From: an uncultured Marinococcus sp.
Lineage (GTDB): Bacteria > Bacillota > Bacilli > Bacillales > Marinococcaceae
Assembly (NCBI RefSeq): GCF_947493875.1
Contig: NZ_CANLSU010000014.1
Span: 1-39,952 of the forward strand
Direction of reading: 5' to 3'
Length of the DNA: 39,952 nt
Shown: positions 14,304 to 39,952 of the stretch, piece after piece
How the letters are laid out: each line of letters begins with the position of its first letter
Position numbering within the stretch: position 1 is the stretch's first letter
The notes under the pieces: generated by a model
Seen by the model: only the letters and a program-made list of their open reading frames with translations
Databases searched by the model: none
What the model was told of the DNA's origin: nothing
Program-made: the position numbers and the translations under genes

Positions 14304-14351
14304 TTCTAAAAAAATTAATGTCTTAAAGTTTTAACTTCTAGACAGCGACAT

Positions 14352-14388
14352 AAACACCCCGTTTTTAACGATAAAACGGGGTGTTTTC
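14352..14388 (+). terminator. Terminator after hrtA
   Basis: AAACACCCCGTTTT (14352-14365) and AAAACGGGGTGTTT (14373-14386) form a perfect 14-bp stem with T- and A-runs at both sides, so it could act in both directions. It closes hrtBA and insulates the resolvase. Confidence 0.88.
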
Positions 14389-14390
14389 CA

Positions 14391-14440
14391 TCTAAAAGTT
14401 CGTCTATAATATAATGTACAATACACAATAAACTTTTAGA
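14391..14440. promoter_or_regulatory. Possible resolvase crossover/operator site
   Basis: TCTAAAAGTT (14391-14400) and AACTTTTAGA (14431-14440) are perfect 10-bp inverted arms around an AT-rich 30-bp core containing TATAATATAAT, which could be the resolvase promoter -10. It is 18 bp before the resolvase gene, where serine resolvases usually bind. The spacing is longer than a classical 28-bp subsite I, so it may be two subsites or only an operator. Confidence 0.5.
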
Positions 14441-22988: not shown

Positions 22989-23020
22989 AGATAAATCTAA
23001 ATTAAGCAAATGAATGTGTT

Positions 23021-23200
23021 GGGAGAGATTGCAGCGCGTAGCTGTAGCACCGAAGGAGCAATCTTTTTAAACAGCCTAAAAAGAAAAACTCTCAGGTTCC
23101 GGGACTAACACAGGATGCACCTCTGGAGAAGGTATCTACCTGCCGAAGAAGAGAATTCTTTGTAAAAAGATGAAATCTTTCAGGCTCCCAGACAGAGATG
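23021..23200 (+). ncRNA. Tandem glycine riboswitch
   Basis: The leader of sdaAB contains two glycine-aptamer patterns. Aptamer 1 has GGGAGAGATT, GCACCGAAGGAGCAA and ACTCTCAGG. Aptamer 2 has CTCTGGAGAA, TGCCGAAGAAGAGAA and TTTCAGGCTCCCAGACAGAG. The CCGAAG and TCAGG blocks occur in both, as in the known family. CTCTG at 23121-23125 closes P1 of aptamer 2 with CAGAG at 23193-23197. The same CAGAG is the left arm of the terminator that follows. Glycine binding should therefore block termination and turn expression on. Confidence 0.9.
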
Positions 23201-23272: not shown

Positions 23273-23770
23273 ATGCAATTTGATAGCTGTTTTGATATTA
23301 TTGGCCCGATCATGGTGGGCCCTTCGAGTTCACACACCGCTGGAGTGGTCTCTATTGGCAAATTTGTGCACACTTGGCTAGGGGATTTGGACCATGTCAC
23401 CATTACGTTTTACGGCTCTTTGGCCTCGACGTACCAAGGCCACGGATCGGACAAAGCCATTATCGGCGGCTTGCTCGGGTTATCGTCACGAGATCTTAAT
23501 ATTCGCAGCGCCTATGCATTAGCCAAGGATCGTCATCTGGATTACCATTTTACGCTCGTTCCCGATGCTCCTCCGGACTATCACCCGAATACTGTTCAGG
23601 TGGAAGCCGCTTCCCGGGCGGGGACCCTGCACATCATAGGAGCCTCTATTGGCGGGGGCGTCGCGATGATTTATGCCATTAACCATCAGGAGGCGAGCAT
23701 CAACCTGGGCACGGGCGTGGATATTGATACTATTGTGGCAAAAACCAAAAAGGAGGTTTCGGACGTATGA
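23273..23770 (+). CDS. sdaAB: L-serine dehydratase, beta subunit (no ACT domain)
   Basis: This subunit of the iron-sulfur L-serine dehydratase, with SdaAA, converts L-serine to pyruvate and ammonium. SCFDIIGPIMVGPSSSHTAG, quoted by its core GPSSSHTAG, and the later HIIGASIGGGVAMI are diagnostic. At 165 residues it is shorter than the roughly 220 of Bacillus SdaAB: it ends right after the catalytic-type domain and lacks the C-terminal ACT domain that is the usual regulatory or effector module. The stop overlaps sdaAA by 4 bp, so this looks like a real C-terminus, not a frameshift. GGAGG precedes ATG 23273. Composition is clearly more GC-rich than the neighbouring genes. Confidence 0.9.
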   Translation: MQFDSCFDIIGPIMVGPSSSHTAGVVSIGKFVHTWLGDLDHVTITFYGSLASTYQGHGSDKAIIGGLLGLSSRDLNIRSAYALAKDRHLDYHFTLVPDAPPDYHPNTVQVEAASRAGTLHIIGASIGGGVAMIYAINHQEASINLGTGVDIDTIVAKTKKEVSDV

Positions 23771-24651
23771 CGGAAACCATGAAAGACATTGTGGCGGCAT
23801 GCCAGGAGCGAGGCATTTCACTGGGTGAATGGATGATCCAGCGGGAGACAGAGCGGACCGGGGGTGAACGGGAAAAAATATTCGCCCAGATGCAAGAAAG
23901 GCTGAGCGTGATGAAAGAAGCTGTGGCCCAAGGAATCAATGACTTGGAGGAAACGACCAGCAAACTTTCGGGCGGGGACGCCTATCGGATGCATCAATAC
24001 AATCAGACAACCGATCCCCTATCCGGCCCCACCATCAGCAAAGCGATGGAGGCAGCCATGGCCACCTCTGAAAGCAACGCAAAAATGAATGTGATTGTGG
24101 CGACGCCGACCGCGGGGTCCGCGGGCATTCTTCCTGGCATCATGATTTCCCTGCAGGAAAATCATCATATTAATGATGAAGCACTCACGATGGGGCTGTT
24201 TGCAGCGAGCGCCATTGGTTATGTGTTTGCCAACCATGCTTTTGTCTCGGGAGCCGCCGGTGGGTGCCAGGCGGAAGTAGGATCGGCTACAGCAATGGCT
24301 GCGGGAACCATAACGGAATTGCGCGGCGGAGCTCCGGCAGCTGTGACACATGCCGTGGCGATGGCCATGAAATCCCTTCTGGGATTAGTTTGTGATCCTG
24401 TCGGGGGGTTAGTGGAAGTGCCCTGCGTGAAGCGTAATGTGATCGGGACCTCTATTGCCTTTTCAGCGGCGGATATGGCCCTAGCTGGCATTGAAAGTCG
24501 GATCCCTTGTGATGAAGTCATTCATACCATGCATACCATTGGCAAAGACATGCCAGGGAGTTTAAAAGAAACCGCTGAGGGAGGACTTGCACAAACACCG
24601 ACCGGTTTGCAAGCAGCGCAACGGGTCTATCAACGGCCATGTAACTTATAG
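23767..24651 (+). CDS. sdaAA: L-serine dehydratase, alpha subunit
   Basis: This 294-residue subunit carries the catalytic [4Fe-4S] cluster. Its likely ligands are C167 (GGCQAEVGSA), C209 (LVCDPVGG) and C220 (VEVPCVKRN). GPTISKAMEAAM and TPTAGSAGILPG are other family blocks. It is full length for the Bacillus type. It starts inside the sdaAB stop (ATGA), so the two subunits are translationally coupled. Expression should follow the upstream glycine riboswitch. The enzyme needs an intact Fe-S cluster and is oxygen sensitive in known members. Confidence 0.93.
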   Translation: MTETMKDIVAACQERGISLGEWMIQRETERTGGEREKIFAQMQERLSVMKEAVAQGINDLEETTSKLSGGDAYRMHQYNQTTDPLSGPTISKAMEAAMATSESNAKMNVIVATPTAGSAGILPGIMISLQENHHINDEALTMGLFAASAIGYVFANHAFVSGAAGGCQAEVGSATAMAAGTITELRGGAPAAVTHAVAMAMKSLLGLVCDPVGGLVEVPCVKRNVIGTSIAFSAADMALAGIESRIPCDEVIHTMHTIGKDMPGSLKETAEGGLAQTPTGLQAAQRVYQRPCNL

Positions 24652-26251: not shown

Positions 26252-26277
26252 ATTAAAAATTAATTAGAAAAAATATA

Positions 26278-26322
26278 ACCCGAATCGTAGACATATAAAA
26301 GTCTTTACGATTCGGGTGTTTT
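26278..26322 (+). terminator. Terminator after the EIIC gene
   Basis: ACCCGAATCGTA (26278-26289) pairs with TACGATTCGGGT (26307-26318), with an inner GAC/GTC and then TGTTTTAT. It lies between convergent genes and probably serves the racemase operon as well. Confidence 0.85.
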
Positions 26323-26408
26323 ATATATATATATATCAAATGTTTTGTTCGAATTAAACAATTTGGGCTACAAAAATTTTATAGAATTGGTTTATATTTT
26401 TTAGTGAA

Positions 26409-27449
26409 TCAAGTCGAATGTTGTACGGAAATATCCTCTATTTGATTTAAAAGAAACCCTCGACGAAAAGGATCATTAGGATTGATAAAAAACTGATGCA
26501 TACCAGTCACCCATGCAGTACCGGCAATCGTTGTTTCAACTCCTACTTGAGCACCCACAGTCGTTTCATTTATTACTTCGCCAACGAACGTACCTCCAAC
26601 AATACTTTCGTGCGTAAAGGGCTCTAGCAGCTGAATTCCCCCTTTTTTATATAGTGTAGCCAATTTGGCAGAAGTGCCTGTCCCACATGGAGAACGATCT
26701 ATACCCAAGGGTGGAATAACCACGGTATTTCGAATATCTGCTTCCTTGCTGTGAGCTGGTTCGTAAAATTCGATATGCGTTAGTTCATTAATATAAGGCT
26801 TTGTGGGATGACTAATGTTATGTTCTTGATTTATTAATGTACGAATTTGCTTAGCTTTTTCAAGAATTTCCATACTACTTTCGGGTATAAGTTTTAATCC
26901 AACATCTTCGGCGCGAATAATGGCGTAAAAGTTTCCGCCGTAGGCGATATCGCAAAGAATAGGAGCATTTGCATAAGGAGTTTGTACTTTAATGGTGTCA
27001 AAATGAAATGCAGGAACATTTTTAAATTTCACTTCTTGAGCTTCTCCGTTTTTTACTTTAATGTCCACATCTACGAGTCCGGCAGGCGTTTCTAATGTTA
27101 AAGATGTTTGAGGTTCTACTGCCGGTATTCTCCCTGTCTCTATTAGTGCAGTGCAAAATCCAATGGTATCGTGACCACACATTGGAAGGTAACCGCCAGT
27201 TTCAATATATATAACTCCGACATCTGCTTTAGGATTACATGGTTCAAGCAGTATGGCTCCAGACATCACTTCATGGCCCCTCGGTTCATACATTAAAACT
27301 TCCCTTACCCAGTCATGGTTTTTTTTCATATCTAGCATTTTTTCTTCGATACTTTCACCTTTCAAGGCTGGCACACCACTTAGGATGGTTCTTGTTGGAT
27401 TTCCGGCTGTATGACTATCAATCGTATGAAAAACATTGGTGTAATTCAT
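26409..27449 (-). CDS. 4-hydroxyproline 2-epimerase (proline racemase family)
   Basis: This 346-residue, cofactor-independent racemase or epimerase has the two catalytic cysteines C91 (PMCGHDTIG) and C255 (DRSPCGTGT). Having both Cys rules out the trans-3-hydroxyproline dehydratase subgroup, where the second is Thr. The next gene, a DAO-type FAD oxidoreductase, is 4 bp overlapped, and the rest of the hydroxyproline pathway follows. The likely reaction is therefore trans-4-hydroxy-L-proline to cis-4-hydroxy-D-proline. Proline racemase activity cannot be excluded from sequence alone. It is the distal gene of the sigma-54 transcription unit that starts at 28.65 kb. Confidence 0.9.
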   Translation of the reverse strand: MNYTNVFHTIDSHTAGNPTRTILSGVPALKGESIEEKMLDMKKNHDWVREVLMYEPRGHEVMSGAILLEPCNPKADVGVIYIETGGYLPMCGHDTIGFCTALIETGRIPAVEPQTSLTLETPAGLVDVDIKVKNGEAQEVKFKNVPAFHFDTIKVQTPYANAPILCDIAYGGNFYAIIRAEDVGLKLIPESSMEILEKAKQIRTLINQEHNISHPTKPYINELTHIEFYEPAHSKEADIRNTVVIPPLGIDRSPCGTGTSAKLATLYKKGGIQLLEPFTHESIVGGTFVGEVINETTVGAQVGVETTIAGTAWVTGMHQFFINPNDPFRRGFLLNQIEDISVQHST

Positions 27450-28627
27450 CCTTTAACACTCTCCTTTTGAAATCTTTCAATAGATAATGGTTCAAGTGGT
27501 ACGCTGCTTTTAACACCTTGAATCAATTCTTGTATCAATTTGCCAGTTATGGCAGCTAAGCTGATACCATCTCCCTCGTGCCCAGCAGCAACATAGAAAC
27601 CAGAATAGCCTGAAACTTCAGAGACAATAGGCAAATGATCAGGCGTCCAGGGTCTATGGCCAGCGTAACTACGGATCATAAGCATATCTTTTAAAATTGG
27701 ATAAAATCTGGTTGCACGTCTAGCTATTGCTTTGACTACCTGGTAATTAACAGAGGAATCCATGGAGGCGAATTCCCGACTGCTCCCAAGTAAGAAATTT
27801 TGACTTTCTGTTGGTTCAAAAACAAGAGCAACCCCATACTTTTTTAATTCTGAATCTACTTGGCGTTCACCTCCAAATTTAGATAACAAATAACCAAATT
27901 CCATTACTTTTCGATTTCCAATTGGCCGATCGCGAGAAGCTACAAGGATGTGCCCTTTGCGAGGTTCAATAGGAACATTGATATTTTCGTCCAACAAGTG
28001 AGTAATATGAGGGGCCCAAATACCAGCAGCATTCACAATTCTTTTAGTTTTTATAGTTCCTTTATCTGTTTCCACTTGATAAGCGTCGTTCACTTTTTTT
28101 ATGGAAGTAACTGTAGTATGAGTACTAAGGAAAGCTCCCTGCGATGTTGCTCCATTCATTAAAGCATAAGTGAAAAGGTAAGGGTTCACAGTAGCATCGC
28201 TGGCGCACTCAAGGCCTCCTAACAGGTCATCGGCAAAATATTTTGATTCGTTTCTTAAGTCCTCTTTATCTAACATTCGAAAGGGAAGGTTATGTTGCTT
28301 TTGTTGATCTACCCATTGCTGGGCCGCTTTCATTTCTTCTTCGGTTTCACAGACAAGAATACTCCCTGGGTTTCGGTATTCAAATTTTTCAGGTAAAGTT
28401 TTGCTTAAATCTGAAACTAGTTTTTGGCTTTCCGTAGACATCAAGCTATCAAAACCTGGATCCTTATCAATAGCGAGTATATTGCCATCACATTTGGAAG
28501 AAGTGCCTGCGGCGATCTCTTTTTTTTCTACTACTTGTACATCCAGTCCTGTTTTTGAAACATAATAAGCTATAGAAGCACCTACGATACCTCCACCGAT
28601 AATTAATACATCACATTTCTGCTTCAT
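27446..28627 (-). CDS. FAD-dependent D-hydroxyproline dehydrogenase, DAO-type subunit
   Basis: This 393-residue DAO-fold flavoprotein begins with the FAD-binding CDVLIIGGGIVGASIAYY (GxGxxG). Near the C-terminus it has the second FAD contact (SGFYVAAGHEGDGISLAAITG, cited as AAGHEGDGI). It resembles HcnC and the beta subunit of bacterial D-hydroxyproline dehydrogenases, which oxidise cis-4-hydroxy-D-proline to 1-pyrroline-4-hydroxy-2-carboxylate. The start is ATG 28627 (GGGAGG 9 bp upstream). The in-frame ATG 28654 is rejected because the sigma-54 promoter at 28661-28676 would start transcription near 28650. It is divergent from the three genes that seem to supply the other subunits. Confidence 0.88.
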   Translation of the reverse strand: MKQKCDVLIIGGGIVGASIAYYVSKTGLDVQVVEKKEIAAGTSSKCDGNILAIDKDPGFDSLMSTESQKLVSDLSKTLPEKFEYRNPGSILVCETEEEMKAAQQWVDQQKQHNLPFRMLDKEDLRNESKYFADDLLGGLECASDATVNPYLFTYALMNGATSQGAFLSTHTTVTSIKKVNDAYQVETDKGTIKTKRIVNAAGIWAPHITHLLDENINVPIEPRKGHILVASRDRPIGNRKVMEFGYLLSKFGGERQVDSELKKYGVALVFEPTESQNFLLGSSREFASMDSSVNYQVVKAIARRATRFYPILKDMLMIRSYAGHRPWTPDHLPIVSEVSGYSGFYVAAGHEGDGISLAAITGKLIQELIQGVKSSVPLEPLSIERFQKESVKG

Positions 28628-28660
28628 GCTTCTCGCCTCCCTTTCCTTATTCATAAGTAA

Positions 28661-28676
28661 TGCAATTTTTATGCCA
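28661..28676 (-). promoter_or_regulatory. Sigma-54 promoter for the dehydrogenase-epimerase operon
   Basis: On the minus strand TGGCATAAAAATTGCA has GG and GC with the exact -24/-12 spacing of the TGGCAC-N5-TTGCA consensus. It predicts a start near 28650, just upstream of the RBS for ATG 28627. The activator gene lies at 33.1-34.8 kb. Confidence 0.8.
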
Positions 28677-28697
28677 AAGAGTTTATAAAATAAAAAG

Positions 28698-28715
28698 TTG
28701 GCTTAAAATTTGCAT
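28698..28715 (+). promoter_or_regulatory. Sigma-54 promoter for the BFD/ferredoxin/flavoprotein operon
   Basis: TTGGCTTAAAATTTGCAT contains TGGC and TTGCA with the exact 16-nt spacing. It lies 26 bp before ATG 28741. Only 21 bp separate it from the divergent sigma-54 promoter. Confidence 0.78.
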
Positions 28716-28740
28716 GTATTAAAGAAAAGGAGGAAGTAAT

Positions 28741-29025
28741 ATGAGCGAAAACAACTTTACTGTCTGTAGGTGTGAAGAAGTAAGTTATCAAACATTAAAA
28801 GAGACAGCTCAAACATATGGTTGCTCTTCAAGAGAATTGAAACTACGAACGAGGGCAGGAATGGGAATATGCGGAGGACGAACTTGCAGACCGATGGTTG
28901 AAGCTATCAGTAAAAACGTAGGAAAAGCTTCAGCTTTTGCTTCTAGTGAAGAAGTCCCCCTTAAGTATCAGCCTCCAGTAAGACCTATTGGTTTTGATTT
29001 TGAAAGAGGTGAATATAATGAATGA
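28741..29025 (+). CDS. BFD-like [2Fe-2S]-binding protein
   Basis: This 94-residue protein has the bacterioferritin-associated-ferredoxin/Fer2_BFD pattern: C9-x-C11 near the N-terminus and C44-x4-C49 in MGICGGRTCR. These are four cysteines for one [2Fe-2S] cluster. In known multi-subunit D-hydroxyproline dehydrogenases and cyanide synthases this domain is normally the C-terminal part of the larger flavoprotein subunit. Here it is separate and comes first in the operon. It likely passes electrons from the flavoproteins. The next gene begins 8 bp before its stop, so translation is coupled. GGAGG lies just before ATG 28741. Confidence 0.85.
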   Translation: MSENNFTVCRCEEVSYQTLKETAQTYGCSSRELKLRTRAGMGICGGRTCRPMVEAISKNVGKASAFASSEEVPLKYQPPVRPIGFDFERGEYNE

Positions 29026-29350
29026 ACGCATTTACGAACATCCCGTATTAGAAAATATAGAAAAGGGCAGCCTCATTCCATTTATTTTTAATGGAAAACA
29101 ATTAGAGGCTAGAGAAGGAGAAACGGTAGCAGCAGCATTGCTAGCAAATGGTATCCGAAAATTACGAGTGCAGGAAGCTACGGATGAGCCAAGGGGAATC
29201 TATTGCAATATTGGTCATTGTTTTGAATGTCGTATGAAAGTAGATCAAAAAAATAACACACGTGCTTGCTTGACGATGGTTAAGCCACATATGCAAGTAG
29301 AAACGCAGGGTAGTTTGCCAAAACCATTTGAGAACGATGGAGGGATATAA
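29018..29350 (+). CDS. (2Fe-2S) ferredoxin-like subunit (HcnA/Fer2_4 type)
   Basis: This 110-residue protein has a plant-type ferredoxin fold with cysteines C63, C68, C71 and C84 (YCNIGHCFECRM and RACLT), a standard [2Fe-2S] set. The sequence around FNGKQLEAREGETVAAALLANGIR, cited by EGETVAAALLANGI, matches the N-terminal Fer2_4 domain found in sarcosine oxidase alpha and in HcnA. It should be the small electron-transfer subunit of the dehydrogenase. ATG 29018 is preferred because it has AAAGAGGTG upstream; an earlier frame from 28988 overlaps too much. It overlaps the next gene by one base. Confidence 0.87.
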   Translation: MNERIYEHPVLENIEKGSLIPFIFNGKQLEAREGETVAAALLANGIRKLRVQEATDEPRGIYCNIGHCFECRMKVDQKNNTRACLTMVKPHMQVETQGSLPKPFENDGGI

Positions 29351-30615
29351 TGGAGACACGCCAAGTAGATGTTGCAATTATTGGTTCTGGGCCAGCCGGG
29401 CTCGCTGCAGCTATTGAATGCGCTACTTATGGTCATCATACTATTGTGATCGACGAATTTATGAAAAAGGGAGGAAGATTATTAGGCCAATTGCATGAAG
29501 AATCAAAAAATGAATGGTGGAATGGAATCGAAGAGTCAGAGAAATTAAATGAGAAAGCCGTGGAGGCCGGAGTAGAATTTTATATGGAAACTTCTGTGGT
29601 CAATATCGATAAAGACGATAATTACTGGGTAATTGAAACTTCTAAAAAAGCATTCAAGAGTTCTTGTGTGTTGGTAGCTACGGGTGCAGCCGAGTCGCCA
29701 ATTGCTCTGCCAGGATGGACGTTGCCAGGCGTCATGTCTATTGGAGCTGCTCAAGTGATGACCAATGTGCATCGTGTAAAGCCAGGTAATAAAGGCATCA
29801 TTATAGGTATTAACGCTCTTACCATGGCTATTGCCCGAGAACTGCAACTAGCCGGTGTGGAAGTAGAAGGGATTTATACAAGTCCATATGAACCGAATAT
29901 CGACGCTATGAATAGTACACCCAATGATGCTTTGGATGAAATGGGGAGAATGGCTGGCCTTGCCCCCACCATATTTTTAAGGATGGGCAGTTATTTTATC
30001 GGCTCGGACTGGTTAAGAAGGCGAGTATTACAGTTTTATCCTTCAAAAGGAATATCTGTATGGGGTATTCCTATTCATTTTAATAAAACAGTGCAGCAAA
30101 TATTTGGGAGAGAGCAAGTCGAAGGCGCTATGATTCATAAAATACACGCGGATGGGGAAATTGCCAAGTCTAATTACGACCAAAAAGAGCTCGATTTTGT
30201 CTGCATTTCTGGAGGTTTATATCCTTTAGCGGAGTTAGCAGCTATTGCTGGATGCTCCTTCTATAATATACCTGCATTAGGAGGATATGTGCCATTACAC
30301 TCTGAAAAGATGGAGACCACAGTAGAGGGTCTCTTTGTAGCTGGAAATATTACTGGAATTGAGTCTGCCAAAGTAGCTATTGTCCAAGGTACCACTGCCG
30401 GACAGAGTATATCTAAATTTTTAGATAAAGAGTCTAAAACTTTAGACGAAAGAATTGAAAATAGTATTCGACTTCAGAAACAAATAAGAGCAGAAGCTCC
30501 TATTCAATTTCATCCAGACATACAATCTGGAAGAAAGGAAATGCAGAAGCTTTGGAAGGAGCACGTGGAACAAGCAGCATCTTTCAAAAAACAAGAACAG
30601 ATCTCGGTTAAATGA
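29350..30615 (+). CDS. FAD/NAD(P)-binding oxidoreductase subunit (HcnB type), without BFD domain
   Basis: This 421-residue pyridine-nucleotide-disulfide-oxidoreductase-like protein starts with QVDVAIIGSGPAGLAAA (FAD GxGxxG). The second Rossmann stretch reads GNKGIIIGINALTMAIARE, where the second glycine motif is degenerate, so NAD binding may be lost. VAGNITGIESAKVAIVQG is the C-terminal FAD contact. It matches the alpha subunit of D-hydroxyproline dehydrogenases and HcnB but is shorter because the usual C-terminal [2Fe-2S] BFD domain is encoded separately by the gene at 28741. It ends 20 bp before a bidirectional terminator. Confidence 0.87.
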   Translation: METRQVDVAIIGSGPAGLAAAIECATYGHHTIVIDEFMKKGGRLLGQLHEESKNEWWNGIEESEKLNEKAVEAGVEFYMETSVVNIDKDDNYWVIETSKKAFKSSCVLVATGAAESPIALPGWTLPGVMSIGAAQVMTNVHRVKPGNKGIIIGINALTMAIARELQLAGVEVEGIYTSPYEPNIDAMNSTPNDALDEMGRMAGLAPTIFLRMGSYFIGSDWLRRRVLQFYPSKGISVWGIPIHFNKTVQQIFGREQVEGAMIHKIHADGEIAKSNYDQKELDFVCISGGLYPLAELAAIAGCSFYNIPALGGYVPLHSEKMETTVEGLFVAGNITGIESAKVAIVQGTTAGQSISKFLDKESKTLDERIENSIRLQKQIRAEAPIQFHPDIQSGRKEMQKLWKEHVEQAASFKKQEQISVK

Positions 30616-30635
30616 AATCAGTTAATCCTATATCA

Positions 30636-30678
30636 AGCAAAAAAACGCCTCCAGAATAATTTCGGAGGCGTTTTGCTT
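30636..30678. terminator. Bidirectional terminator between convergent operons
   Basis: AAAACGCCTCC (30642-30652) and GGAGGCGTTTT (30664-30674) form an 11-bp stem flanked by AGCAAAA and TTTTGCT. It ends both the oxidoreductase operon (+) and the dehydrogenase operon (-). Confidence 0.9.
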
Positions 30679-30706
30679 AGTATAAAACTACTTTTACCTT
30701 AAAGTT

Positions 30707-32137
30707 TTATTGATATTTGATGGCGCATGTTTTGGTTTCTGAATAAAATTGAAGCGCCGCTTGACCTTGTTCTCGTGTATGCGAACTTGAATCTTTCATA
30801 CCACCAAATGGGGCTTGATATTCGACCCCTGCGGTCTCTAGATTTACGCGAACCATTCCGGCCTCTAGCCGATCTAAGAAAGAAAAGGATTGATTCAGAT
30901 TTTGCGTAAAGATAGAGGCGCTTAGACCGTAATCAGTGTTATTGCAAACATCGATAGCTTCATTGATATCTTTAGCTTTACGAAGCACAATCAATGGACC
31001 AAATACTTCTTCATTCCAGGCTGGATGGGTTTCATCTAAGCCTTCGACAATCGTAGGGCGAACATAATATCCGTTAGCATCAGGAATGTCTCCTTGGGAG
31101 ACGACCGTTCCGTCTTCCGTGCTTTGGGCTATATAACGACTGACTTTATCGTATTGAGCCTTTGAAACTACAGGCCCAAGATAACAATGTTCTTGATCTG
31201 CTGGCGTAACCTGGACGTCTTTCATCGCTGTCGCCAGCTCTTGTTTAAATGATTCATAAGCAGCATCTTCAACAATCACCAGACTTGTAGCTGTGCATTT
31301 TTGTCCCGCCGAGCGAAATGCTCCACTCAATACAGCATGAGCTGCTTGGGAAAGATCAGCATCAGCCATGACAATTGCTGGGTTCTTCCCTCCCATTTCT
31401 GTTTGAAATTTAATATTGCGCTGAGCGCATGTTTGCCCGATGGCTTTACCAACCTTTGTAGATCCTGTAAAACTAACAGCGTTGATGTTCGCCTGTTCTA
31501 CTATATAATTTCCTATTTCTCTACCTCTTCCTAAAACGAGATTGATCAATCCTGATGGAAAACCAGCTTCATTTAAGATTTCTGTCATTTTACTTGCGGT
31601 TAAATAAGCGTTTTCCGCTGGCTTCCATACCACTGCATTTCCACAGACAAGAGCAGGAGCAATTTTCCAAACGGGGATAGCTACCGGGAAGTTCCAAGGA
31701 GTAATGATTGCTACTACACCAAGTGGTACCCTTTTAGCATACTGATGAACGCCTGGAGCACTAGCTGGTATCGTGTCTCCATCTGGACGTACGCCTTCTG
31801 CTGCATAATAACGAAAAAGCTGTATGGCTCGTTGAACTTCTCCTTTCATTTCTTTGATAGGTTTGCCCATTTCTTTAGTAGCGAGCGTAGCGAGTTCATC
31901 AGCATATTGATTTATGAGTTGTGCTGCCTTATACAACACAGCGCTTTTTTCAGCGCCGGTTTTCGATACCCATTCTTTTTGAGCTTGTTTGGCTGCCTCT
32001 GCCGCTTGATTTACGACTTTTTGATCGCTTAAAGTAACTTCCCCTACGAGTTCTTCAATATTGGATGGGTTTGTGATTTGAATAGTTTCCCCGTCTTTTT
32101 TAATTTGATCGTTTACGACGCTATGGCCTTGTAACAT
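30707..32137 (-). CDS. 2-oxoglutarate semialdehyde (2,5-dioxopentanoate) dehydrogenase
   Basis: This 476-residue aldehyde dehydrogenase has all catalytic residues: N149 in TPWNFPVA, E247 in TEMGGKNP and C281 in AGQKCTATS. It has GSTKVG for NAD(P) binding. Together with the DHDPS-family deaminase 15 bp upstream, it completes hydroxyproline catabolism by oxidising 2-oxoglutarate semialdehyde to 2-oxoglutarate. The clade cannot be fixed by eye; betaine-aldehyde or other aldehydes are possible but context argues against them. ATG 32137 has AAAGGCGG upstream. It is transcribed with the deaminase from the sigma-54 promoter at 33077. Confidence 0.9.
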   Translation of the reverse strand: MLQGHSVVNDQIKKDGETIQITNPSNIEELVGEVTLSDQKVVNQAAEAAKQAQKEWVSKTGAEKSAVLYKAAQLINQYADELATLATKEMGKPIKEMKGEVQRAIQLFRYYAAEGVRPDGDTIPASAPGVHQYAKRVPLGVVAIITPWNFPVAIPVWKIAPALVCGNAVVWKPAENAYLTASKMTEILNEAGFPSGLINLVLGRGREIGNYIVEQANINAVSFTGSTKVGKAIGQTCAQRNIKFQTEMGGKNPAIVMADADLSQAAHAVLSGAFRSAGQKCTATSLVIVEDAAYESFKQELATAMKDVQVTPADQEHCYLGPVVSKAQYDKVSRYIAQSTEDGTVVSQGDIPDANGYYVRPTIVEGLDETHPAWNEEVFGPLIVLRKAKDINEAIDVCNNTDYGLSASIFTQNLNQSFSFLDRLEAGMVRVNLETAGVEYQAPFGGMKDSSSHTREQGQAALQFYSETKTCAIKYQ

Positions 32138-32152
32138 GCTTAAACCGCCTTT

Positions 32153-33034
32153 CTAATTTAATATAAAACTTTTAGCTGTTTCGAAATCTTTTTTAATATC
32201 TTGATAATACGTTTCATTTAAGGACAAACGTGGAGGACGAGTAGGGCCACATGGGCGTCCCGCGAGCTCCATCATGTACTTAATTGATTGTACTAATTGA
32301 GGGTTCGCATCGTAATGAAATAATGGTAAAAGTTTTTGATATAGTTCAGTGCCTTTTTCGATTTCCTTCTCCTTCCCATAATTGAATAATTGTTTTCCTT
32401 CTTTAGGAAGAGCGTTTGGTACGCCCGAAATCCACCCTGTGGCCCCCATTAATGCTCCTTCAAATGCTAAATCATCGACGCCAATCATGACTTCTAAATT
32501 AGTCAATCTTAGAATATCTTGAACACGTCGTATATCTCCGGAAAATTCTTTCACGCCCAGGACATTATCGAACTGAGATATTTCTTGTAACAATTCTGGG
32601 GTTAAGTCCGTAGGATAATCGTGTGGGTTATTATAAGCTACGATTGGCAGGCCGACTCCTGACAGTGCCTCATAATGAGCCAGAATTTCGTTTTTTAATG
32701 GATTATAGTTTATTGGAGGAAGAGCCATTAAACTCGTGGCCCCATTTTCTTTGGCATGTTCTGCCCAGAACACAGCTTGTTTTGTAGAAGGAGCTCCAGT
32801 ACCTACCATCACTGGTACTCTATCTTTTGAAATTGCTAATACGGTCTCGACTACTTTTTGCCTTTCTTCCACCGTAAGAGTAGCGTACTCTCCCAGTGAT
32901 CCTCCCGGGATAAGTCCATCAATTCCGTTTTCTATTAACCAATCGCAATGGTTTTGAAGTTCCTTGTAGTCTACCTCATGGTTATCTTTAAATGGTGTAA
33001 CTAATGCAACATGCACGCCTTGAAAAATCGACAT
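32153..33034 (-). CDS. 1-pyrroline-4-hydroxy-2-carboxylate deaminase (DHDPS/NAL family)
   Basis: This 293-residue class I aldolase-fold protein has Schiff-base lysine K162 in GVKEFSGD and Tyr134 in IVAYNNPHD. The GGSLGEYATL loop (44-53) replaces the GTTGE of true dihydrodipicolinate synthase. It closes with RPCGPTRPPRLSL. Such divergence, and the neighbouring aldehyde dehydrogenase, point to the deaminase that turns 1-pyrroline-4-hydroxy-2-carboxylate into 2-oxoglutarate semialdehyde with loss of ammonium. A sugar-acid dehydratase is the alternative. AGGGGAAATAAC precedes ATG 33034. It is first in its operon. Confidence 0.88.
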   Translation of the reverse strand: MSIFQGVHVALVTPFKDNHEVDYKELQNHCDWLIENGIDGLIPGGSLGEYATLTVEERQKVVETVLAISKDRVPVMVGTGAPSTKQAVFWAEHAKENGATSLMALPPINYNPLKNEILAHYEALSGVGLPIVAYNNPHDYPTDLTPELLQEISQFDNVLGVKEFSGDIRRVQDILRLTNLEVMIGVDDLAFEGALMGATGWISGVPNALPKEGKQLFNYGKEKEIEKGTELYQKLLPLFHYDANPQLVQSIKYMMELAGRPCGPTRPPRLSLNETYYQDIKKDFETAKSFILN

Positions 33035-33076
33035 GTTATTTCCCCTCCTTAAATGTATAAGTACAATCTATGTATA

Positions 33077-33092
33077 TGCAAAAATGATGCCA
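33077..33092 (-). promoter_or_regulatory. Sigma-54 promoter for the deaminase/aldehyde dehydrogenase operon
   Basis: On the minus strand TGGCATCATTTTTGCA has exact GG-GC spacing. The -24 region is embedded in one arm of the hairpin that terminates the upstream activator gene. The start would be near 33066, about 30 bp before ATG 33034. Confidence 0.8.
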
Positions 33093-33111
33093 AGTTTGTA
33101 CTTGGCATCAA
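33084..33111 (-). terminator. Terminator of the activator gene, overlapping a promoter
   Basis: On the minus strand TGATGCCAAG, loop TACAAA, CTTGGCATCA forms a 10-bp stem followed by TTTTT. The activator's TGA stop (33108-33110) is the first codon of the stem. The right arm is also the -24 element of the next operon. Confidence 0.85.
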
Positions 33112-34841
33112 AAAAGGTTTGAAAGTTGGTGCTTATTTATTTTGTTGTACATGGTTGCTCTTGAAATGTTCAAATCAGTAGCTGCTTTATTAATTGCCCC
33201 AGCATGTTTTTCAAGGCATAGTCGGACAATGTATTTTTCAAACTCCGCCATTTGCTGGTTCAAACTTTTTTGGTCATCGATTTTAAATTCTGAAGTTGAT
33301 AATAAAGAATGTTCTATTTCAGTTGTTTCTAGTTTTAAATATTGTATTTCTTTTGGAAGATCGTGAGTAGTTATAGTTTCATTGTCTAAAAATATAATTA
33401 CGTTTTCAATAACATTCTTTAATTCTCTAATATTCCCAGGCCAAGTATATTCAAGCAATCGTTTCATAGCACTTGGTTCAATATGATGGAGGATACGATT
33501 ATACTTTTTTGTAAATTCATAAATGAAATTGTGAGTCAAATCTAAGATATCTTTTTTTCTTTCTCTAAGAGGCGCGATATCTAAGGTCACAGTGTTTAAT
33601 CGGTAATATAAGTCTTCGCGAAAACGATTTTCGTTAACTTCTTCTTTTAGGTCTTTATTTGTCGCAGCAATAATCCGGCAATCAACCTGCTTCTCCTTAG
33701 TGCCTCCAACTGCATAATATGATTTTTCTTGAAGTACTCTTAATAATTTAACTTGCATTTCTAAAGGCATTTCTCCTATTTCATCTAAAAACAAGGTACC
33801 TCCTCGAGCCAAATCGATTTTTCCTTCTTTGCCTTTATTCAAAGCTCCAGAAAAAGCGCCTTTTTCATAACCGAAAAGTTCACTTTCAAATAAGCTAGAA
33901 GCTATGGCTCCGCAATTTAATGCAATAAAAGGAGCTCCATTCTTTTCTCTTACATAATGAAGAGATTTCGCAAATAATTCCTTTCCTACGCCGGTTTCTC
34001 CGCGTATAAGTACTGTAGCAGGTACATTTTCCATTTTTCTTATTTTTTCTTTAGTTGCTTCGATCTTTTCACTATGACCTTCTATCATAGAGAAAGGGTT
34101 CGTGCTACTTTGAATCTTTTCTTCTAAGTCATTTATCGTTTTGTTAGCTTTCGATAATTGTTTATTCAATCTTACGTAATTTGTAATATCTGTTTCAGCT
34201 GCGATTGCCCCTACTATTTTCCCTTCAACAGTAATTGGATTAGTGTTGATTAATACCACTAAATCTTCTCGAGGTTGATGCTGATGTCTATAATAACTTT
34301 TTCCATATTGGAAAGATTCATATAATTTTAACATTGAGGTATCAAAAAATTCGGTCATTTTCTCGCCTAGTATATCTTTTTGTTTAATGGAAAAGATCTC
34401 TTCTGCCCCTGAAGTCCATACAAAAGTATTTTCTTTTTCATCAATCATGGATACAGAGCTGTCTATGGTTTCTATCATAGTTTCGAAGCACGATTCTATA
34501 AAGGTATATCTAGAATATATTTTGGAGGAAATATTGCTCGTACTTATAATCCCCTCGGGTTTATGATGCTCATTGAGCAATACAACAAAGTCTTCCGTAT
34601 CCAGCAAAGCTGCGATAGATGCGTTAATCTGGAGAGTCGGAACTTTTTTTGAGAAGGCCTGAATAATTTTCTTCGTGATTTGTAACTCTGAATTGTTCAT
34701 ATAAACGCAATAAAATTCATTGTTTTCTTCATAAAAATAAGTGCCCTTGCTTGGTTTCTCTGCTAATACAGCGTTTAAAGAGGAGAAAATTTGATAACTG
34801 TGGTCTATAAATTCATGTAAGCTAAAGCTAAAATTCTTCAC
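33108..34841 (-). CDS. Sigma-54-dependent transcriptional activator with PAS domain (hydroxyproline-responsive, predicted)
   Basis: This 577-residue bacterial enhancer-binding protein has an N-terminal region of about 115 residues without a known family, then a PAS domain (about 120-225, SVSMIDEKENTFVWTSGAEEIF in part). The AAA+ domain (about 250-485) carries Walker A GETGVGKE (281-288), GAFSGA (328-333, the sigma-54 contact loop, usually GAFTGA) and Walker B GGTLFLDEIGEM. A Fis-type helix-turn-helix ends it (NKAATDLNISRATMYNKI). It remodels sigma-54 RNA polymerase using ATP. The start is GTG 34841 behind AAAGGAG. It sits between the operons that carry sigma-54 promoters. The sensed ligand is unknown; a hydroxyproline-pathway intermediate is the obvious guess. 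Confidence 0.92.
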   Translation of the reverse strand: MKNFSFSLHEFIDHSYQIFSSLNAVLAEKPSKGTYFYEENNEFYCVYMNNSELQITKKIIQAFSKKVPTLQINASIAALLDTEDFVVLLNEHHKPEGIISTSNISSKIYSRYTFIESCFETMIETIDSSVSMIDEKENTFVWTSGAEEIFSIKQKDILGEKMTEFFDTSMLKLYESFQYGKSYYRHQHQPREDLVVLINTNPITVEGKIVGAIAAETDITNYVRLNKQLSKANKTINDLEEKIQSSTNPFSMIEGHSEKIEATKEKIRKMENVPATVLIRGETGVGKELFAKSLHYVREKNGAPFIALNCGAIASSLFESELFGYEKGAFSGALNKGKEGKIDLARGGTLFLDEIGEMPLEMQVKLLRVLQEKSYYAVGGTKEKQVDCRIIAATNKDLKEEVNENRFREDLYYRLNTVTLDIAPLRERKKDILDLTHNFIYEFTKKYNRILHHIEPSAMKRLLEYTWPGNIRELKNVIENVIIFLDNETITTHDLPKEIQYLKLETTEIEHSLLSTSEFKIDDQKSLNQQMAEFEKYIVRLCLEKHAGAINKAATDLNISRATMYNKINKHQLSNLF

Positions 34842-34876
34842 TCGTATTCTCCTTTCTAATTGTTTAGATAATTTTA

Positions 34877-34905
34877 ATTATTTTCTAACATAATAGACAT
34901 GTCAA
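34877..34905 (-). promoter_or_regulatory. Sigma-A promoter of the activator gene
   Basis: On the minus strand -35 TTGACA (34900-34905), 17-bp spacer, -10 AATAAT (34877-34882). The activator is therefore made from an ordinary promoter while its targets use sigma-54. GACATGTC at 34896-34903 is a palindrome that overlaps the -35 and could be an autoregulatory site. Confidence 0.6.
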
Positions 34906-34934
34906 GTGCGTTTATATTCGAAATAATAAAAAGA

Positions 34935-34948
34935 TTCATTTAAATGAA
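34935..34948. repeat. 14-bp perfect palindrome upstream of the carrier promoter
   Basis: TTCATTTAAATGAA lies 23 bp upstream of the -24 element. It could be part of an activator site, but it is close for an enhancer. No matching copy was found near the other sigma-54 promoters. Confidence 0.4.
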
Positions 34949-34971
34949 AGCGCTATTTTTTCATTTTGCAA

Positions 34972-34988
34972 TTGGCATGTAATTTGCA
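34972..34988 (+). promoter_or_regulatory. Sigma-54 promoter of the NhaC-type carrier
   Basis: TTGGCATGTAATTTGCA matches TGGCAC-N5-TTGCA with exact spacing. It lies 42 bp before ATG 35030 and is divergent from the activator. Confidence 0.8.
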
Positions 34989-35029
34989 AGTAATAAAGCA
35001 AGCAAGATAAATTTATTAGGAGGGTAACT

Positions 35030-36478
35030 ATGAGGAAGGAAATAAAAGATCCGTCGGTAAAACAAGTTTTACTTGTAATGGTACTATTTATATTAATCAT
35101 GTTTAGTTTCATGAATTGGTTTGGATTACCTATACAGTTAGCTCTTTTAACTTCTTGGTTCATGTTAATGGCTCTAGGGTTGTGGCTTGGAAGATCATAT
35201 TCATTCATGCAAAGTGGACTGCTTAAAGGAATATCAGATGGAATGGAAGCAGTTTTAATTCTTATTTCAGTTGGGGCATTAATCGGGAGTTGGATTGCAA
35301 GTGGTATTGTGCCAAGCATTATCTACTATGGTCTTTCTGTTATGAACCCTTCGATTTTTTTACTTGCAGCAATGATTATCTGTGCTGTGACTTCTTTAGC
35401 TACTGGCACATCATTTGGCACGATAGGAACAGCAGGGATTGCTATGATTGGTATTGGTCAAGGATTTGATATTCCTCTTCCGCTTGTTGCAGGGGCAGCT
35501 ATATCTGGCGCTTATGTCGGGGATAAACTTTCACCTTTATCTGATACTACGGTGATGACTGCTTCTTTAACCAAAGTAAACATTATTACTCATATCAAAT
35601 CAATGTTGTATGTGAGTGTACCAGCGTTTATTATTTCAGGGCTCCTCTTCCTTTTAACCGGTTTATTCTATGTAACTAACTCTGCTGACTTAACTCAAGC
35701 TACTCAAACTATGAATGCGTTGAACGATCAATTCCAAATTAGTTGGTACATGTTAATTCCTCCTGTAATCATTATTAGCTTACTTGCCTTAAAGCAACCA
35801 GCAATACCAACAATCATTTTTGGCTCACTATTAGGCGTTTTGTGGGGATATTGGTTCCAAAACATGGCATTTTTAGATTCAATTAATACTGTTTATGAAG
35901 GATATAGTACAAATTCTGGGGTACCTTTTATTGATAACCTACTAAATAGCGGTGGTATTGTATCAATGCTGGAAGTGATTTTATTAATCCTACTTGCACT
36001 TGGTTTAGGGGGACTGATGGAATCCATTGGAGTATTAAGGACCATCGGAAACACACTAGCGAAATGGGCAACAAATTCCGGGAAATTAACCACATCTACT
36101 ATGCTATCCGCTTTTTTTGGCAATTTCTTCGGAGGCGCAGCTTACGTTTCTGTTATCACAGGTAGTAAAATAACAGAAAAAAACTATGAAAAGTTAGGTA
36201 TTGAGAAGCGTGTTTTATCAAGAAATACTGAGGCTGGAGGTACTATTACGACTCCGATGGTTCCCTGGTCTGATGGTGGTGTATTTATGGCGGCTACATT
36301 AGGAGTAGCTACTTTAGCATATTTACCATTCTTATGGTATCACTTTCTAGTAATCATAATTAGTTTAGTATATGGCTTCACAGGCAAATTTATATGGTAT
36401 ACAGATGCTACCTCACCAGAAATAGAACAACCATCTGAGAAATCCTCTATTTCTGCTTCTGGGAAAAAGAAAGCTTAA
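35030..36478 (+). CDS. NhaC-family secondary carrier, predicted hydroxyproline importer
   Basis: This 482-residue membrane protein has about eleven helices. Family marks of the NhaC/ion:H+ or substrate:Na+ antiporter group include ATGTSFGTIGTAGIAMIGIG, cited by TSFGTIGTAG, and GAYVGDKLSPLSDTTVMTA, typical of MleN- and NhaC-like carriers. It also has TEAGGTITTPMVPWSDGG near the C-terminus. The sigma-54 promoter shared with the catabolic operons and its divergence from the activator suggest it imports hydroxyproline or a related amino acid in exchange for an ion. True Na+/H+ antiport is the alternative. GGAGGG precedes ATG 35030. Confidence 0.87.
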   Translation: MRKEIKDPSVKQVLLVMVLFILIMFSFMNWFGLPIQLALLTSWFMLMALGLWLGRSYSFMQSGLLKGISDGMEAVLILISVGALIGSWIASGIVPSIIYYGLSVMNPSIFLLAAMIICAVTSLATGTSFGTIGTAGIAMIGIGQGFDIPLPLVAGAAISGAYVGDKLSPLSDTTVMTASLTKVNIITHIKSMLYVSVPAFIISGLLFLLTGLFYVTNSADLTQATQTMNALNDQFQISWYMLIPPVIIISLLALKQPAIPTIIFGSLLGVLWGYWFQNMAFLDSINTVYEGYSTNSGVPFIDNLLNSGGIVSMLEVILLILLALGLGGLMESIGVLRTIGNTLAKWATNSGKLTTSTMLSAFFGNFFGGAAYVSVITGSKITEKNYEKLGIEKRVLSRNTEAGGTITTPMVPWSDGGVFMAATLGVATLAYLPFLWYHFLVIIISLVYGFTGKFIWYTDATSPEIEQPSEKSSISASGKKKA

Positions 36479-36493
36479 AAACAATAAAGTAAC

Positions 36494-39790: not shown

Positions 39791-39876
39791 AATAATGTTT
39801 AAAGATTGGTAGAGACTTTGCGGTAATATAAATAAATGATTATAAAGGGAAGAGTGACGTCTCTAGGGCCTCTTCC

Positions 39877-39952
39877 GGGACCGTCAATAATTTTGTGTAA
39901 ACGGCTGTCCTCTTCCAGCCTTGAAGTTAACCCTGCCGTTGAAACATATCTT
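39877..39952 (-). mobile_element. IS256-family insertion sequence, 3' end (partial, inverted copy)
   Basis: GGGACCGTC at 39877 starts the same terminal sequence seen at 348-356, in reverse. The transposase stop is at 39927-39929, and the last seven codons (DMFQRQG) run to the window edge on the minus strand. The body continues outside. The two copies differ at several positions but are clearly the same element type. Confidence 0.85.

Follow-up and report, generated by a model that had tools for sequence, protein, structure and literature searches.

The stretch analysed here, called the window throughout, is a 39,952-nucleotide contig (NZ_CANLSU010000014.1) from an uncultured Marinococcus sp. 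Between positions 26409 and 36478 it carries a nine-gene cluster that very probably forms a single regulon for trans-4-hydroxy-L-proline (t4Hyp), read by sigma-54 (SigL) RNA polymerase. Hydroxyproline is an amino acid in which collagen is rich. This hydroxyproline reading is well supported, although inferred for this organism, and it is not new in kind. Our best explanation of the whole, which we think fairly likely to be right, is a SigL-type t4Hyp regulon of four transcription units, driven by an enhancer-binding protein (EBP) through a pair of dyads lying inside an enzyme gene. The explanation starts from what can be seen (promoters, genes, dyads, a hairpin, and conservation) and reaches from there to substrate, binding, looping, termination, and autorepression. 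The pathway is ordinary, the kind of regulon is known, and both were read correctly from sequence alone in the original prediction; it is the layout of the controls that is unusual. To that prediction we add an overlap of terminator and promoter, the activator dyads, the closeness of one promoter pair, and the loss of the cluster from a sister species.

The earlier gene identifications were borne out at family level by Pfam and NCBIfam profile searches. A NhaC-family carrier (35030-36478, plus strand; TIGR00931, 500 bits against a cut-off of 370) is the probable uptake system and would import t4Hyp. The epimerase, a putative hydroxyproline 2-epimerase of the proline racemase family (26409-27449, minus strand; PF05544, 370.6 bits), has the catalytic cysteine pair of its superfamily (Cys91/Cys255, in MCGHDTIG at 90 and SPCGTGTSA at 253) and would convert t4Hyp to cis-4-hydroxy-D-proline. 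Oxidation to pyrroline-4-hydroxy-2-carboxylate would fall to a four-subunit flavin/iron-sulphur D-hydroxyproline dehydrogenase, composed of a DAO-family subunit (27446-28654, minus strand; PF01266, 229 bits; best solved relative 1y56_B), a BFD-like [2Fe-2S] subunit (28741-29025, plus strand; PF04324), a Fer2_4 [2Fe-2S] subunit (29018-29350, plus strand; PF13510), and an FAD subunit of the pyridine-nucleotide type (29350-30615, plus strand; PF07992), whose gene contains the predicted enhancer. A DHDPS-family enzyme (32153-33034, minus strand; PF00701) would then deaminate this intermediate to alpha-ketoglutarate semialdehyde; it has YNNP tyrosine and VKEF lysine motifs. Finally, an aldehyde dehydrogenase (ALDH; 30707-32137, minus strand; PF00171), whose nearest named enzyme is alpha-ketoglutarate semialdehyde dehydrogenase, would oxidise the semialdehyde. 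At family level, then, epimerase, D-hydroxyproline dehydrogenase, deaminase, and semialdehyde dehydrogenase are encoded together in a conserved neighbourhood, and to call the regulon complete is fair for the oxidative route down to alpha-ketoglutarate.

Two observations tell against this choice of substrate. The first is that all of the pathway enzymes score under the curated NCBIfam equivalog cut-offs (for the ALDH, the best model is NF042993, with 594 bits against 770). NhaC is the sole cluster protein to exceed its cut-off, and the substrate assignment therefore rests on the combination of genes together with experiments in relatives. The curated models fail to separate 4-hydroxyproline epimerase from proline racemase for the window's enzyme, and its highest score is with the latter (359 versus 336 bits). 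Its closest solved structure is AsProR, and the closest NCBIfam model to the EBP is PrdR (NF041552, 481.6 bits), which likewise has a proline-related substrate and governs reductive proline fermentation in Clostridiales (PMC6615313, in part). These matches would suit a proline racemase pathway leading from L-proline to D-proline and onward. Both epimerase models are below cut-off, however, as is PrdR (cut-off 795), and no D-proline reductase family appeared among the matches listed for the nine cluster proteins. A D-proline route needs neither a DHDPS-family deaminase nor a semialdehyde dehydrogenase (the available sections of PMC4113996, and pathway knowledge), and Bacillus thuringiensis mutants lacking soxR or soxB, two genes of the locus considered next, still use proline according to the available sections of PMC4941409. 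We give this alternative hardly any weight.

The second observation comes from that locus, the sox genes of B. thuringiensis HD73 (HD73_3138-3147). As far as the available sections of PMC4941409 and PMC4428206 describe it, the soxB and soxC promoters need SigL and the EBP SoxR, a dependence shown by lacZ fusions, 5' rapid amplification of cDNA ends, electrophoretic mobility shift, and footprinting (PMC4941409). SoxR also acts as a repressor at the promoter of its own gene, and soxC is served by a single SoxR site at a distance of at least 1.7 kb (PMC4941409, PMC4428206). Since mutants in soxB and soxR failed to grow when sarcosine (N-methylglycine) was the nitrogen source, the authors took the locus to serve sarcosine utilisation; in the same sections, the functions of soxE-soxI are left open, their products being annotated as a racemase, a hypothetical protein, a DHDPS, an ALDH, and a carrier. 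Like the window, the locus combines these annotated gene families with SigL promoters and activation over kilobases, and it has its EBP gene inside the cluster, with a non-sigma-54 promoter of its own and another promoter directly after it. The two differ in that sox has two sigma-54 promoters and one intergenic enhancer, whereas the window has four promoters, a predicted intragenic enhancer, and a different gene order; in addition, the carrier is an "amino acid carrier protein" in sox and NhaC in the window.

The window could thus be a sarcosine locus like its named counterpart, a reading that we consider highly unlikely. It leaves no evident use for the products annotated in soxE-soxI, and the window's FAD subunit has 421 residues against the 996 positions of the soxA model, with the best-matching stretch ending at 351. 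B. cereus ATCC 14579, moreover, grows on trans-4-hydroxyproline, and t4Hyp raises expression of its predicted epimerase gene and of the oxidase, deaminase, and dehydrogenase genes close by (PMC4113996, available sections, which mention neither a sigma factor nor an activator). The primer list of that article covers Bc0905-0906 and Bc2832-2836; the latter is probably the t4Hyp-induced neighbourhood, "4HypE cluster 4," which like the window combines epimerase, D-amino acid oxidase, DHDPS, and ALDH. A promiscuous dehydrogenase would account for the sarcosine result. Equating the sox locus, the B. cereus cluster, and the window by gene content as described, rather than by alignment, we arrive at a joint reading in which SigL and SoxR control a hydroxyproline pathway whose dehydrogenase may also accept sarcosine. 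In the B. cereus group, the "sarcosine" locus under SigL/SoxR is thereby linked with the hydroxyproline cluster known from these same bacteria, and because the two are joined, functions can be offered for most of soxE-soxI. The word hydroxyproline does not occur in the main texts of PMC4524646, PMC4941409, and PMC4428206, and in the library searched we found no paper that describes a hydroxyproline regulon of Bacilli under sigma-54 or that joins the sox and hydroxyproline loci.

Returning to the t4Hyp regulon, a sigma-54 promoter stands before every structural operon, as had been claimed. Exact TGGC-N7-TTGCA sites precede the DAO-epimerase unit (28661-28676, minus strand), the BFD-Fer2-FAD unit (28699-28714, plus strand), the DHDPS-ALDH unit (33077-33092, minus strand), and nhaC (34973-34988, plus strand), each just 5' of the unit that it would serve. 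The four sites are real and exceed chance in the window, but both plus-strand starts had originally been placed one base too low, with the preceding T included. They are the only exact matches in the whole window and lie within 6.3 kb (100 dinucleotide shuffles: mean 0.42, maximum 3). Enrichment of the motif as sole proof was considered and rejected: the genome holds 28 exact matches against 24 for a reversed control, and with two mismatches allowed the window holds 138 against a shuffle mean of 118, a count reached by 6 of 100 shuffles. Since the motif is unenriched genome-wide, the evidence for the promoters is their position and conservation, and not their count. The other parts of a sigma-54 regulon were found as well, namely a sigma-54 gene (one match in the genome by profile search) and an EBP with AAA+ and helix-turn-helix (HTH) domains; PF00158 has eight matches in the genome, six of them strong.

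The activator itself (33108-34841, minus strand) has an AAA+ domain (PF00158, 229 bits), PF25601, a Fis-type HTH (PF02954), and a marginal PAS match (22.5 bits, just under the cut-off of 22.6). Its sigma-A promoter lies at 34905-34877 on the minus strand, where the original prediction had put it (TTGACA-17-AATAAT, 11/12); it is the best of 33 sigma-A-like matches in the region, with 31.4 expected. In the proposed mechanism, EBP made from this promoter would drive sigma-54 polymerase at all four units. Its loop motif reads GAFSGA in place of the usual GAFTGA; among the 62 relatives described below, 57 have GAFSGA, 4 have GAFTGA, and in 1 neither was found. We considered this variant as a novelty and rejected it, the motif being already in print. 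Just upstream of the nhaC promoter, at 34945-34958, stands the sequence TGAAAGCGCTATTT, which resembles a catabolite-responsive element (cre) and suggests possible control of nhaC by CcpA.

For comparison, we examined 86 related loci (the best 80 of 313 relatives in named genomes, plus six more). The core genes are held by 62 of them, defined by matches to BFD, the FAD subunit, and EBP alongside an epimerase and a DAO of at least 50% identity; the epimerases of these selected loci are 51-66% identical to the window's, and the EBPs 38-52%. Sixty have the gene order epimerase-DAO, EBP, BFD-FAD subunit. The window's order recurs only in L150 and L151, both from its own family. Searched within about 220 bp upstream of the estimated gene starts, the strict sigma-54 motif precedes DAO in 57/62 loci and BFD in 38/62, with 20 more having only a relaxed form of it before BFD; a reversed control gave 0/62 in both cases. 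It precedes the DHDPS match in 8/61, and stands in L150 and L151 at the same position as in the window. Upstream of the NhaC match the strict motif was found in 0/29 loci and a relaxed form only in 3 (one of the 29, in L051, is a distant match at 32% identity), and a separate nhaC promoter is consequently so far peculiar to the window. An nhaC homologue of at least 50% identity is present in 28 of the 62 relatives.

The same comparison bears on the deaminase. Identity to the window's DHDPS is 57-73% in L047, L058, L079, L150, L151, L152, L153, and L155, against 29-38% for the best match in the other 53 loci having one, and the recurrence of this subtype beside the other cluster genes supports the role proposed for it. 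A separate observation is that a second, divergent racemase-family gene (22-28% identity) adjoins the epimerase in 9 of 15 loci listed (L042, L047, L051, L057, L058, L079, L083, L090, and L110); the window is without it.

A candidate recognition site for the activator emerged from L150 and L151. Between the DAO and BFD promoters of both stand GTCTAAA-N2-TTTAGAC palindromes, in L150 as a tandem 21 bp apart. A further dyad (12/12) immediately precedes the EBP start in L150; in L151 a weaker one was noted there, by eye only. The dyad was spotted by eye in these two loci and then scored, the window and the other loci being scanned afterwards; the pattern was for that reason not fixed in advance. 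In 87 sequences totalling 1.75 Mb its exact core, TCTAAA-N2-TTTAGA, was counted 7 times: twice in the window, twice in L150, once in L151, and twice in L074. Sixty half-site arrangements gave a mean of 0.32 occurrences, with 2 for the next best. In the relatives at large, a form with a wider gap, GTNTAAA-N4-TTTANAC, lies within 300 bp upstream of EBP in 21 of the 62 loci, against a mean of 0.44 for 59 permuted half-sites. Across these loci, the stretch between the DAO and EBP match starts holds 33 of 47 gap-4 dyads, 6 of 12 gap-3 dyads, and 12 of 24 gap-2 dyads, where an even spread would give 0.90, 0.23, and 0.46, although this stretch is A+T-rich and may include the first part of the EBP gene, and some matches with different gaps coincide. 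Tandems with a spacing of 19-20 bp are found repeatedly, as in L072, L098, L069, and L073. We propose GTNTAAA-N2-4-TTTANAC as the EBP recognition site, a new prediction that would extend to relatives across Bacillales.

In the window, the dyads appear in another place. Between its DAO and BFD promoters, whose -24 boxes are separated by 22 bp, a scan of 28100-29300 for a dyad that might serve as upstream activating sequence gave a best score of only 8/12. The one 12/12 dyad between 26000 and 37000 lies instead within the FAD-subunit gene, at 30432-30447 (14/14 to GTCTAAA-N2-TTTAGAC), and 21 bp from it, at the spacing of the L150 tandem, is a second predicted site at 30411-30426 (12/14; 10/12 to the wider pattern). 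Dinucleotide shuffles of the region gave 0.045 sites of at least 12/14 each, and two within 42 bp in 0/200. The main activator site appears to have moved inside an enzyme gene, where the pair is predicted to act as the enhancer.

An alternative that accepts the regulon and its promoters holds that these intragenic dyads are a coincidence of coding, the EBP acting from a weak site at its own promoter (34854), from unrecognised sites, or from solution; we judge it doubtful, though by no means negligible. The protein words SKFLD and SKTLD at these places favour the dyad sequence, and among 3000 synonymous recodings of the whole gene 594 had some site of at least 12/14 and 36 had two; a perfect dyad arose in 5. 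Where the window has its second dyad, the L150 protein reads similarly, SKGLD. Set against this, when the two places were held fixed, sites as good as those seen (12/14 or better at one, 14/14 at the other) arose in 16 of 100,000, with at least 12 at both in 1081. The dyads lie in the stretch SKFLDKESKTLDER, a linker of variable sequence and length in an alignment of 18 FAD-subunit homologues, the other 17 of which preserve neither word; the SKGLD codons of L150 do not form a dyad, and the 21-bp spacing is that of the L150 tandem.

Several further results weigh against an EBP acting through the intragenic pair. The location is known from a single genome, and among five genomes of the genus only the window's own has the activator (E at most 1e-120); the search for it also covered 29 genomes of the family and an even draw of 397 from the order. 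Three more dyads of 10/12, with gaps of 3 or 4, occur between 26000 and 37000, at 29863, 30680, and 31243. L074, which has two of the seven exact dyads, is an EBP locus without epimerase and DAO genes. One permuted half-site reaches 13/62 upstream of EBP, against the 21/62 of the gap-4 form, and the gap-2 form, at 5/62, is indistinct from controls (permuted half-sites reach up to 4). Lastly, the published SoxR footprint is A+T-rich and has no obvious match to the dyad. When its sequence was used to seek the B. thuringiensis locus, it was found in 0/398 genomes, with no B. cereus-group sequence retrieved.

A weak dyad at 34854-34869 (11/14; 9/12) overlaps the activator mRNA at its predicted start and ribosome-binding region, in the same place as the 12/12 site of L150 and 104 bp from the -24 box of nhaC. 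About 104 bp is a usual distance between an enhancer and a -24 box, and the coincidence alternative draws on this, as well as on the EBP-proximal sites scored in L150 and seen by eye in L151. The score of the 34854 dyad alone is not above noise, because three other 11/14 sites occur at 14320-14426, and it is the position that makes it a candidate. Such a site may limit EBP synthesis and help nhaC, and it would fit autorepression as reported for SoxR (PMC4941409, available sections).

Within the regulon as we propose it, the EBP would bind GTCTAAA-N2-TTTAGAC, which in L150 and L151 stands between the divergent promoters. In the window the main enhancer would be the pair in the FAD-subunit coding sequence, near the middle of the cluster, and would contact all four promoters by looping across 1.7 to 4.6 kb (1768, 1715, 2648, and 4559 bp from the pair to the four -12 boxes). 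We offer tentatively, as a possibility somewhat short of even, the more specific picture in which the control region has collapsed to back-to-back promoters 22 bp apart, with one intragenic hub, carried by a linker, driving four promoters in both directions over these distances. Similar reach has been described for SoxR and for RocR of B. subtilis, where one enhancer serves distant promoters and can do so from a downstream position, at 1.5 kb and, in part, at 15 kb (PMC4941409, available sections). The RocR enhancer lies in the rocG-rocABC intergenic region, whereas the one predicted here is inside a gene of the regulon itself. Because polymerases from the BFD promoter would have to read through an enhancer in the FAD gene, the regulon may limit its own output. 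If the prediction is true, the same codons would serve both the protein and the enhancer, and the locus would offer a clean natural test of the reach and location of a bacterial enhancer, since the site can be erased without changing the protein. A literature search on enhancers inside genes returned no use of the term "intragenic enhancer" among the matches listed.

A second unusual feature lies at the end of the EBP gene, where a terminator-like hairpin (33085-33110, minus strand; 11-bp stem with a T tail; -16.9 kcal/mol, z -5.9) overlaps the promoter of the DHDPS-ALDH unit. The 3' arm carries the TGGC, and the T tract forms the spacer between the -24 and -12 elements. Terminator-like matches in the region are at chance (10 versus 8.6); this hairpin has one of the two longest stems there, and of that pair it alone runs into five Ts. 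On our reading, the EBP transcript would end in the hairpin, whose 3' arm and T tract double as the next sigma-54 promoter, so that termination would fall exactly at the start of the next unit. This double use is a new observation. The construction recurs in L150 and L151, with stems that differ in sequence, and of the 52 relatives in which a promoter follows the EBP gene these two alone have a stem of at least 10 bp there; control DAO promoters have such stems in 2/57. The other 50 of the 52 have no stem above 8 (loops 3-8), and the overlap consequently marks the window's subgroup and not the family. An earlier, looser count of stems of at least 8 gave 13/57 for the control against 8/53 after EBP, with the window included. 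The overlap as a trait of the whole family was rejected, the long stem occurring only in the window, L150, and L151.

The cluster has also left a trace where it is now missing. In the sister genome G001 both flanks are about 98% identical to the window's, and two pieces of nhaC replace the rest of 26264-36479. They match 35602-35674 and 35927-36478, and the nhaC frame is broken (L149, contig G001:C12, places 23331-23950). The broken remnant implies that a common ancestor carried the cluster (or minimally its nhaC end) and that G001 lost it; this loss is a new finding. A genome of the window's own species, G004, is without the activator and has only short matches to the flanks.

Elsewhere in the window, a glycine riboswitch (RF00504, 61.5 bits) at 23010-23117 lies upstream of 23273-24651, an apparent L-serine dehydratase pair named from its translation. 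Near the end of the contig, an open frame at 39407-39790 matches catechol 1,2-dioxygenases over their C-terminal half only (profile positions 120-245 of 246) and is possibly truncated. The contig closes, at 39875-39952, in a repeat some 77 bases long that is probably the terminus of a mobile element; copies at 89-99% identity are numerous in G001 and G002, and G004 has a single copy.

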